From Sodalis-like secondary symbiont of Drepanosiphum platanoidis (GTDB lineage: Bacteria > Pseudomonadota > Gammaproteobacteria > Enterobacterales > Enterobacteriaceae), in contig NZ_OZ060924.1 of the NCBI RefSeq assembly GCF_964059955.1, positions 248,001-312,000 of the forward strand: 64,000 nt of DNA, in the 5' to 3' direction. The notes beneath the pieces were generated by a model. The model saw only the letters and a program-made list of their open reading frames with translations, made no database searches and had not been told where the DNA came from. Positions 7,967 to 43,050 of this stretch are shown here, piece by piece. The translations under genes and the position numbers were made by a program. The first letter of the stretch is position 1; each line of letters opens with the position of its first letter.

Positions 7967-8509
7967 TTAATAATTTTTTTTTGGTGAAAGTATCATAGTA
8001 GCTTGACGTCCTTCAACTTTATTAGGAAAAAATTCTATTATTGATATTTTAATTAAATCTTCTTTAACACGATTTAATACTTGTATACCTAATTTTTGAT
8101 GAGCCATTTCTCTTCCTCTAAATCTAAGAGTAATTTTTACTTTATTACCATCTTTAAGAAATTTAATTAAACTTTTTAACTTAATATTATAATCATTTTT
8201 ATCTGTATTAGGTCTAAATTTTATTTCTTTAATTTGTATTTTTTTTTGTTTCTTTTTTTGATCTTTAGCAGCTTTTCTTTTTTTATATAAAAATTTTCCA
8301 TAATCCATTATCTTACATACTGGAGGTTCAGCATTTGGACTTATTTCTACTAAATCTGCTTCTAATTTTTCTGAAATTTTTAAAGCTTGAATTAAACTCA
8401 TAATTCCAAGCTGTTCATTTTTTATACCAGTTAATCGAATTTTTTTAGCTAAAATTTCTTTATTAATTCGATAAAAATTTATTATTTGATTTTTTTTTCC
8501 GACTTTAAT
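7967..8509 (-). CDS. infC: Translation initiation factor IF-3, AUU start codon
   Basis: IF-3 keeps ribosomal subunits apart and proofreads the start codon in the P site. An ATG-only reading starts at 8401 and loses the first 36 residues. In frame upstream, the sequence continues through [14 protein letters not shown] and FYRINKE to KVGKKNQ, where an ATT at 8509-8507 aligns with the AUU start of E. coli infC. From there the protein is exactly 180 aa, the E. coli length. The GGGGGA at the end of thrS acts as ribosome binding site, and the thrS stop is 3 bp upstream. The AUU start is known to let IF-3 repress its own translation, so that control is probably kept. Confidence 0.93.
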
Positions 8510-39569: not shown

Positions 39570-40295
39570 TTATAATTTAAATTTTTCTCCTAAATAAAAT
39601 TTTTTAACGTTTTTATTAGACATAATATCTATTGGAGTTCCTTCTGCAAGTAATTTACCTTTATTTACTATATAAGCTCTTTGACAAATATCAAGAGTTT
39701 CACGTACATTATGATCAGTAATTAAAATACCTATTCCATTTTTTTTTAATTTTTTAATAATATTTTTTATATCTATAATTGAAATAGGATCTATTCCAGC
39801 AAAAGGTTCATCTAAAAGAATAAATTTTGGATTAGTTGTTAAAGTTCTAGCAATTTCTACTCTTCTTCTTTCTCCTCCAGAAAGAGAATTTCCAATATTG
39901 TTTTTTAAATGACTAATATTAAATTCTTTCATTAATTTATTTATATAATCTATTTTTTTATTTTTTTTTATATCTTTTCTAATTTCCAATATTGACATTA
40001 AATTATCAAAAACATTTAATCCTCTAAAGATAGAAGATTCTTGAGGAAGATAATTTATTCCATATCTTGCTCTTATATGTAAAGGAAATAGACTAATATT
40101 TTTATTATCTATAAAAATAGATCCATAATTATGTTTAATTATTCCTAAAATAATATAAAAAGTTGTTGTTTTTCCAGCACCATTAGGACCTAAAAGTCCT
40201 ACTATTTCACTAGTATTAATTTTTAAACTAATATTTTTAATAATACATATTTTTTTATAAAATTTATATAAATTTTTTACAATTAATATTGACAT
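39570..40295 (-). CDS. lptB: LPS export ABC transporter ATPase LptB
   Basis: LptB powers LptFG extraction of lipopolysaccharide from the inner membrane. At 241 aa it equals E. coli. Walker [10 protein letters not shown] (about 36-44), Q-loop [11 protein letters not shown], signature [13 protein letters not shown] and Walker [14 protein letters not shown] are present. The lptA gene that stands directly upstream in E. coli is missing. LptF and LptG are not in the window. Confidence 0.97.
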
Positions 40296-40485
40296 AAATA
40301 CTTTATTTAATTTTTAAATTTATTTTTAATAAAATAATTAATATTAAAATTTATATATATAAAAATATATATTAAATTTTTTTTTAAAAATTATTATAAA
40401 GATTTTTTTATTAAAAATAATAATATATTATTTTTTTAATAAATTAAATTTATTTTTTTTAAAAAAATTAAATTATTAATTAATT
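40296..40485 (-). other. Spacer where lptA would stand
   Basis: In E. coli the order is kdsC-lptC-lptA-lptB. Here 190 bp of A/T-only sequence separate lptC from lptB. No frame gives LptA-like residues, so if this is a relic it is no longer recognisable. Confidence 0.55.
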
Positions 40486-40929
40486 TTATTTATTAAAATA
40501 AATATTTTTTTTATATAAATTTATTAATAAGTTTTGTGTTTTAATAATATTAATTTTTGATTTATTATTAAAATTTATTATTTTTACTTTTTTATATAAA
40601 TAAATATATTTATTTTTATTAATTTTTAATTTATTAGATGATATTTTCCAACAATATTTAATATTTTTATCAAAAATTGTAATTAATGGATTATATAATT
40701 TAATTTTATTAAATAATGGAAAATATTTTATTTTATTAGAAATTATTGTATAATTTAAAAAACCATTTTTATTATAATAAAATATTTTACTATTAAATAT
40801 TTGATATTTTGGATAAAAAAAATTTTTTTCTTTATATAAAAAAATATTATTATCTAATTTTTTTAAAAAAAATAAAATAAAAATTGTAATTAATAATAAA
40901 ATTATTACTAATAATTTTTTTTTATTCAT
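40486..40929 (-). CDS. lptC: LPS export protein LptC, C-terminally shortened
   Basis: LptC is the bitopic bridge protein that receives LPS from LptBFG and hands it to LptA. It is 147 aa against 191 in E. coli. One N-terminal transmembrane helix (about 5-23) is followed by part of the beta-jellyroll. Local matches include NPLITIFDKN, the Trp in CWKISSNK and KYIYLYKKVKI. About 40 C-terminal residues, the part that contacts LptA, are absent, and lptA itself is missing next door. Sequence conservation is low and the call leans on gene order. Confidence 0.82.
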   Translation of the reverse strand: MNKKKLLVIILLLITIFILFFLKKLDNNIFLYKEKNFFYPKYQIFNSKIFYYNKNGFLNYTIISNKIKYFPLFNKIKLYNPLITIFDKNIKYCWKISSNKLKINKNKYIYLYKKVKIINFNNKSKINIIKTQNLLINLYKKNIYFNK

Positions 40930-40954: not shown

Positions 40955-41488
40955 TTAATTTTGTGATGATAAAATTAAATCACATATTTCTCTTACAGCT
41001 CCATATCCTCCAAGTTTTTTAGTTATATAATGTGCATATGGTTTTATTAATGGATGAGCATCTGATACTGCTATACTTAATCCTACAATATTCATTATTT
41101 TTTTATCAATTAAATCATCTCCTATATAAGCTACTTGTGTTAAATTCAAATTAATTTTTTTTAATAAAATGTTTAACGCATTAATTTTATTAGATTGATT
41201 TTGATAAATATGTTTAATACCTAAAAATTTACAACGTTTTTTTATAGAAATTGAAGAACCACCAGTAATAATTGCAACTTCAATATTTTTTTTTATTAAT
41301 TTTTTTATACCATAACCATCTTTAATATTAAAAGATTTAATTTCTTCTCCATTTTTTCCTAAAAAAATCATTCCATTAGATAATACTCCATCTACATCAC
41401 AAATCAATAACTTTATTAATTTAGCACTATTAAGTATGGTACGATTAATTGGATAATAAAATTTATTTAAATATTTTTTTTTATACAT
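40955..41488 (-). CDS. kdsC: 3-deoxy-D-manno-octulosonate 8-phosphate phosphatase KdsC
   Basis: KdsC releases phosphate from Kdo-8-phosphate in LPS core synthesis. The protein has 177 aa (E. coli 188). The HAD motif I CDVDGVLSNG (about 29-38), motif II ITGGSS, and motif III/IV AYIGDDLIDKKIM and VSDAHP are all visible. It lies one base downstream of kdsD and is probably coupled to it. Confidence 0.96.
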   Translation of the reverse strand: MYKKKYLNKFYYPINRTILNSAKLIKLLICDVDGVLSNGMIFLGKNGEEIKSFNIKDGYGIKKLIKKNIEVAIITGGSSISIKKRCKFLGIKHIYQNQSNKINALNILLKKINLNLTQVAYIGDDLIDKKIMNIVGLSIAVSDAHPLIKPYAHYITKKLGGYGAVREICDLILSSQN

Positions 41489-41489
41489 T

Positions 41490-42481
41490 TTAAAATTTTC
41501 CTTTATTTTTTTTATTAAAATTTATTATATTATTTAAATGTATAACTCCAATATATTTATTATTATGTTTAACTAAAAGTCCATTAGTTTTATATTTTTT
41601 CATTATACTTAAAGTTTTTGATATAGAAAATGAGGAATAAACATAAAAATTTTTTAATTTTAAAACATCAGATATAATTGAATTATTTAAATTTATATTT
41701 GTATTAATTACTTTAAATAATTCATTGTCCGTAAATATACCCTTTATTTTCATAGAATTATTATATATTACTGCTATACTAAATTTTTTATTAAATATTT
41801 TTATAAATACTTTACGTAATAAAGAATCTTTATAAAAAGATGGAATTTTATCAAATGTAAGCATAATATCTTTTATAGAAATAAATTTTTTTCCAATTTC
41901 TCCTCCAGGATGAAGTAAAGAAATTTTTTTTCTTGTAAATTTTTTTGATTCCAATAATGTAATAGCTAAAGCATCACCCATAACTAATAAAGAAGTAGTA
42001 CTACATGTAGGAGATATATTAAAAGGACAAGCTTCTTTTATAACATAAGAACATAAATTAATTTTAGATTTTAAACTAATAGAACTTTTTTTATTACTAG
42101 TAATAGAAATAATAGGAATTTTTAATATTTTTAATGCTTTAAACAAATTAATAATTTCTATAGATTCTCCAGAATTTGATATAGCAAGTATAATATCTGT
42201 ATTTTGTATTACACCTAAATCACCATGAATAGCTTCTACAGGATTTAAAAATAATGATGGTGTACCAGTACTAGATAAAGTTGAAGATATTTTTCTTCCA
42301 ATATATCCAGATTTTCCTATACCAGTAACAATAACTTTTCCAGTACATAATAATATTTCTTCAATAGCAAGTTTAAAATTATTATTAATATTTTTATATA
42401 AATATGATAAACTATTTTTTTCAATTTTAACTATTTTCCTTCCTATATCAATAAAATTAAAATTTATTTTTTTTTTAACAT
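41490..42481 (-). CDS. kdsD: D-arabinose 5-phosphate isomerase KdsD, frame broken at a 10-A run
   Basis: KdsD turns ribulose 5-phosphate into arabinose 5-phosphate for Kdo synthesis. The long reading frame stays open from 42560 to the stop and encodes the whole enzyme: FNFIDIGRKIVKIEK, the SIS motif GIGKSGYIGRKISS, HGDLGVI, SNSGES, CSTTSLLVMGDALA, LLHPGGEIGKK and two CBS repeats. It has no ATG. The only suitable start, ATG at 42481 with AGGA before it, is one frame off: ATG-TT-A10-TAA gives MLKKK then stop. One extra A in the run (42467-42476) gives MLKKKINFNF and 330 aa (E. coli 328). Rescue by transcript slippage is likely. A homopolymer sequencing error is the alternative. Confidence 0.9.
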
Positions 42482-43050
42482 AAAATATTCCTAGTTTATT
42501 ATTTAAATGTTTTAAAATAATATTATTGTTTAATAAATAAATAAAAAAATAATTATTTATTTATTAAATAAATTTTTTAATAAATATAAATATTATATAT
42601 TATATATTATATATTATATATTATATATTTTTATAAAAAATTATTTTTTTTTAAAAAAATTATATATAAATTAAAATAAATTTTTTATAAAAAATTATTT
42701 AAAAAATAAATATATAAAAATATTTATATATAAAGTTTTTAACTGTAAAATTAATATTAATTTTATAAATATTTTTTAAAAAATTTATTTAATATTATTT
42801 TATATATATTTTATTAACATTTTTATTAAAATATATTAATATATTTTAATTTCATATAAAAAATAAAATATAATGTATCTTTATTATAAATACAAATAAA
42901 ATTTTTAATTAAATAATTTAATAAAATTTATTATATTAAATTTTTAATTAAAAATTTTAAAAAATTAGTATAATAAAAATTTTAAATAAAATTTTTATTT
43001 AATTTTAATTAACTAAAATTAAATATTAATTATATTAAGGATTATATGAT
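42482..43050. other. Divergent spacer kdsD/mlaF with 7-mer tandem repeat
   Basis: This 569-bp spacer holds the promoters of two envelope operons. In E. coli yrbG stands here, but no remnant is seen. The main landmark is a tandem array of TATTATA at 42591-42629. AAGGA before mlaF is its ribosome binding site. Confidence 0.6.
42591..42629. repeat. Tandem repeat of TATTATA, about 5.6 copies
   Basis: Five exact copies of the heptamer TATTATA and a partial sixth lie head to tail in the kdsD-mlaF spacer. It is the clearest short tandem array in the window. Copy number may vary between cells or strains. Confidence 0.9.

Follow-up and report, generated by a model that had tools for sequence, protein, structure and literature searches.

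Frameshifts in poly(A) tracts of otherwise intact genes are known from insect endosymbionts, and eight such genes have been described in Blochmannia vafer (PMC3017870). The same paper states, with reference to Tamas 2008 and Wernegreen 2010, that frameshifts of this kind are corrected by transcriptional slippage in Buchnera and Blochmannia, and for insect endosymbionts PMC5009743 gives 12–50% corrected transcripts. Tracts of ten A are named as slippage sites in mur genes of Buchnera and in spa13 of Shigella in PMC6260861, and shorter A runs (up to 8) in reporters yielded almost no rescue by the E. coli polymerase (PMC6260861). Slippage at spa13 amounts to 55% (PMC4256274), and frameshifting in E. 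coli was 40% with a 9-A cassette and 63% with an 11-A cassette (PMC3711429). As the ten-A tracts of the Buchnera mur genes and of spa13 slip and the 9-A and 11-A cassettes shift, the ten-A tract described here is long enough for slippage.

This tract is located at the start of kdsD in a stretch of 64,000 nucleotides, the window, from the genome of a Sodalis-like secondary symbiont of Drepanosiphum platanoidis. A sequence-only reading of the window had proposed that kdsD is selected and rescued by slippage, and had called rescue of this type established in insect endosymbionts, which the Blochmannia vafer genes bear out. The locus shares with the Buchnera and Blochmannia cases an AT-rich endosymbiont genome, a long A tract altered by one indel, a gene which is otherwise intact, and the restoration of the frame by one slip. 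It differs from them in the gene and the genus, in being known from sequence alone, and in the position of the tract at codons 2–5, because of which no useful truncated KdsD is to be expected. A full-length protein which is made only after slippage on 10 to 11 A before an early stop is also found in tssM1 of Citrobacter rodentium (A11) and in spa13 (A10). Slippage at these two genes was measured in free-growing bacteria, with 20–25% for tssM1, whereas kdsD has been read from its DNA letters, and tssM1 needs both of its forms, whereas the short form of kdsD is a 5-mer. With −1 ribosomal frameshifting in E. coli dnaX and in IS elements, kdsD has in common an A-rich heptamer and a Shine-Dalgarno-like element 9–14 nt upstream; in contrast to these, its heptamer is A_AAA_AAA and not A_AAA_AAG, there is no stem-loop, and the Shine-Dalgarno element is that of initiation. 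A poly(A) frameshift in an otherwise intact gene is therefore nothing new in kind. Unusual in kdsD are the location of the tract at the very first codons and the fact that a sole enzyme depends on this tract. Among the ten best literature matches on frameshifts or pseudogenes of kdsD in endosymbionts there was no paper on this case.

The Start Region of kdsD

The features of the locus are collected in Table 1. On the minus strand the start region reads ...AAACTAGGAATATTTT ATG TTA AAA AAA AAA TAA ATTTTAATTTT..., and a check of the sequence gave exactly ten A in the run. The frame of the ATG encodes M L K K K and then meets a stop codon. The KdsD frame is open on this strand from 42560 to its TAA at 41490, which is 356 codons, and is without ATG, GTG, or TTG for 138 codons, the first canonical start being an internal TTG at codon 138. 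One additional A in the tract would yield a protein of 330 amino acids with the N-terminus MLKKKINFNF. These features, including the full KdsD frame with no ATG upstream and the start of kdsC one base downstream, had been recognized in the sequence-only reading; they were reproduced from the sequence with all coordinates, and the lack of start codons was found to include GTG and TTG. The frame is broken a single time, by a one-base offset within a long A tract (nine or more A, here ten), and the gene is otherwise intact in frame and in conserved positions. Automatic annotation would drop kdsD or label it a pseudogene.

Table 1: Features of the kdsD locus (positions in the window).
Feature	Position	Strand	Remarks
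Shine-Dalgarno-like AGGA	42489..42492	-	7 nt before ATG 42481; 12 nt before first A_AAA_AAA heptamer; from sequence
ATG start codon, out of KdsD frame	42479..42481	-	From sequence; relatives L050 and L053 also ATG TTA AAA
Ten-A run, proposed slippage site	42467..42476	-	Third base of codon 2 through codon 5
TAA closing the ATG frame after MLKKK	42464..42466	-	
kdsD coding frame, ATA (I of INFNF) to TAA	41490..42467	-	Stop-free, whole KdsD, SIS and CBS
kdsC	40955..41488	-	ATG one base past the kdsD stop
lptC	40486..40929	-	Next in conserved cluster; no lptA between lptC and lptB
lptB	39570..40295	-	

As 17 of the 188 sampled reading frames of at least 100 amino acids have a run of at least nine A no farther than 40 nt from their first start codon, the position of the kdsD run is ordinary for this genome; kdsD is the only sampled gene which is without a usable in-frame start owing to such a run. 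The anti-Shine-Dalgarno sequence CACCTCC of the 16S rRNA is intact. A separate observation is that lptA is missing from its usual place, which in E. coli is between lptC and lptB: only 190 bases (window 40296–40485) separate the two genes.

KdsD and Its Relatives

The KdsD frame matched the Pfam SIS and CBS domains. Comparison with E. coli KdsD from the PDB (2xhz) gave 2e-52, and comparison with the PRK10892 model gave 3e-98, which is under the strict cut-off of that model. In tblastn searches the protein aligned unbroken to its relatives over nearly the full length, and the order kdsD-kdsC-lptC-lptB was kept in most of the relatives matched. In the alignment the catalytic positions 59, 111, 152, and 193 of the E. 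coli-like enzyme correspond to lysine 56, glutamate 108, glutamate 149, and histidine 190 of the protein (P0001). Position 59 of the 2xhz chain is an alanine, consistent with an engineered inactive mutant. The active-site part of the earlier claim that active-site and CBS motifs are intact was confirmed in this way. For the CBS part the picture is less simple, with Pfam reporting one stretch (276–321) and the tandem CBS region being seen in an alignment to the solved isomerase CBS chains 3fna and 3k2v over residues 177–319.

An in-frame start near the beginning of kdsD is present in all 38 distinct relatives and missing only here. In nearly all of them it stands directly before the motif FDFxxxGKxVLxIE. 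This motif reads FNFIDIGRKIVKIE in the symbiont and follows the A tract directly, with only the start being out of frame. As kdsD of the AT-rich relatives L050 and L053 begins with the same first three codons, the ATG at 42481 is supported as the ancestral start. With KdsD of other Enterobacterales the protein shares the SIS and CBS architecture, the kdsC/lpt gene order, and the active-site residues; it differs in lacking an in-frame start codon and in its identity of about 42% to free-living relatives. The corresponding identities to the free-living outgroups are 55% for KdsC and 62% for LptB of the same genome, and the ratio of KdsD to LptB is the lowest among ten AT-rich genomes compared, KdsD being more diverged relative to LptB than in the nine others. 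This high divergence could reflect relaxed selection. KdsD of the relative L047, where the gene is intact, is similarly diverged (40%), and a search of genome contigs for kdsD relatives close enough to show the age of the tract returned matches at 36–38% only.

Requirement for KdsD

The genome is AT-rich and shrunken, with 472,091 bases in two contigs. In a search of the whole genome KdsD was the sole match for an arabinose-5-phosphate isomerase and no second, GutQ-like one was found; KdsA, KdsB, WaaA, and LpxC were each present once and uninterrupted. Besides kdsC the window contains two heptosyltransferase-like genes, which were named by eye from the sequence. E. coli without both isomerases is nonviable unless a suppressor is present (PMC10448790, PMC4404585). 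As KdsD is the sole isomerase here and the double loss is not tolerated by E. coli without a suppressor, a functional Kdo pathway should need the product of kdsD.

The survival of a stop-free frame under AT-biased mutation was simulated for an unselected frame of kdsD composition. Such a frame was still stop-free in 48% of cases after 1% neutral substitution, in about 10% at 3%, and in 2–4% at 5%. Stops are gained so rapidly in this simulation that three readings are left for kdsD: a recent break, continued selection on the frame, or no real break at all.

Adenine Runs in the Assembly

Homopolymers were surveyed in a sample consisting of the window, eight stretches of 20 kb, and 6 kb from the small contig, and by searches of the whole genome. 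The sample contained about 100 coding A or T runs of at least ten, with the gene broken only at the A10 of kdsD and the A14 of recA, though short C-terminal truncations would escape this survey. A pattern search of the whole genome found 13 distinct runs of at least 12 A; twelve are located in a frame which stays open across the run, and the exception is recA. As about 100 coding runs are in frame with the exception of two and so are 12 of the 13 longest runs, homopolymer calling is good overall. Poor homopolymer calling throughout the assembly was rejected as a general explanation, the sampled runs being mostly in frame; this rejection does not extend to the kdsD site.

All 13 of the runs of at least 12 A have the A on the strand of the long open frame, and the sampled coding frames contain 322 runs of A8 on the sense strand versus 50 of T8. 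The recA gene (L040:10714–11735, minus strand; G000:C1 about 380714–381735) is split by its 14-A run, which is one A short. Both halves match RecA in the right order, and no other copy of recA was found.

Explanations for the Broken Frame

In the explanation favored here kdsD would have lost one A from its start-proximal poly(A) tract and would still be a working gene. RNA polymerase would slip on this tract, whose ten A are T on the template, yielding an mRNA pool of mixed length. Transcripts with one A more or two A less would have the ATG joined to the KdsD frame and would give an arabinose-5-phosphate isomerase of normal length, and the remaining transcripts would give MLKKK only. The gene may have been kept because Kdo synthesis lacks a second isomerase. 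That kdsD is under selection and is rescued at its poly(A) tract, as the sequence-only reading had proposed, is a plausible reading of the sequence and, given the open frame, the sole isomerase, and the kept pathway, the best supported one, with the reservation that polymerase slippage is not the sole route to the enzyme. The earlier statement that the enzyme would be made only from transcripts with an altered number of A does not hold, since a −1 slip of the ribosome on the unaltered ten A yields the same frame. The reality of the break, the slippage, and the production of enzyme are inferred; a functional kdsD with its tract corrected by RNA polymerase is a tentative proposal which we would put slightly short of evenly balanced.

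The genome may instead truly have eleven A, with kdsD being an ordinary gene and one A having been missed in sequencing or assembly. A single base suffices for this explanation, and kdsD and recA, the two broken genes, are both one A short, which is the direction of undercalling. With about 70 A10 runs in the sample, a single error would also be unsurprising, and how many spurious frameshift pseudogenes an assembly contains is known to depend on the sequencing platform (PMC11017572). The many sampled and longest runs which stay in frame argue against an undercall, which we regard as unlikely but to be taken seriously. The tract may also have contracted recently, fixed or segregating, in an event which has inactivated kdsD or will do so and which is too recent for decay. 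Indels in poly(A) are known to initiate gene loss in endosymbionts (PMC3017870), 27 of 149 genomes of the family gave no KdsD match, and the divergence of KdsD is on the high side; however, the remaining Kdo pathway is kept, and the nonviability of E. coli without any isomerase, unless suppressed, makes such an inactivation improbable.

Frameshifting by −1 on the ribosome as the main route would use the ordinary ten-A mRNA, with a start at ATG 42481 and tRNA-Lys slipping on A_AAA_AAA at the UAA, helped by the initiation Shine-Dalgarno element. The heptamer is in phase ahead of the UAA (TTA AAA AAA AAA TAA), and the AGGA is 12 nt before the first heptamer and 15 nt before the second, the stimulatory range being 9–14 nt (PMC5009743). 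A single Shine-Dalgarno element serves initiation and shifting in one IS element (PMC5009743), the anti-Shine-Dalgarno sequence is intact, and prfB of this genome keeps a Shine-Dalgarno-dependent +1 shift site. However, in E. coli the site A_AAA_AAA shifts far less strongly than A_AAA_AAG (PMC5009743), the Shine-Dalgarno element has four bases only, and no downstream structure beyond that of shuffled sequences was found (z 0.67), though some bacterial cases are also without one. We consider this main route rather improbable. That one short Shine-Dalgarno element does both, initiating at the ATG and driving a −1 shift 12 nt on, so that a sole and probably needed enzyme comes only from ribosomes which change frame by the fifth codon, perhaps alongside polymerase slippage, is quite improbable. 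Initiation at a non-AUG codon within the KdsD frame, such as AUA 42488 or AUU 42425, has a parallel in infC of the window, which evidently starts at AUU 8509 after AAGGGGGA, and AUU 42425 is located 12 nt past GGAAGG. As initiation at AUU is peculiar to infC, AUA 42488 directly adjoins the Shine-Dalgarno element, and a start at AUU 42425 would drop the conserved first segment found in relatives, such initiation is very improbable.

Should rescue by polymerase slippage be real, all of the sole, probably needed enzyme would come from slippage inside its first five codons, and kdsD would be a clean natural test of expression supplied by slippage, with the A14 of recA as a second one. Regulation of Kdo synthesis through the slippage rate is speculation which follows from logic only.

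Other Observations in the Genome

The +1 frameshift site of prfB (L040, minus strand, directly upstream of 18630) is kept as AGGAGG AAT TTT TAA C, with UAA replacing the usual UGA and UUU replacing CUU. As UAA is also read by RF1, autoregulation specific to RF2 would be weakened. The infC gene (window 7967–8509, minus strand) has no ATG, GTG, or TTG before codon 37 and appears to begin ATT AAA GTC GGA AAA, resembling the AUU start of infC in E. coli. The small contig (L042, G000:C2, 12,989 bases) carries thiC, thiE-like, and thiF-family genes as well as genes for a PLD-domain protein and a dimethylarginine dimethylaminohydrolase-like protein, and a coding-like tandem repeat occupies its first 300 bases.
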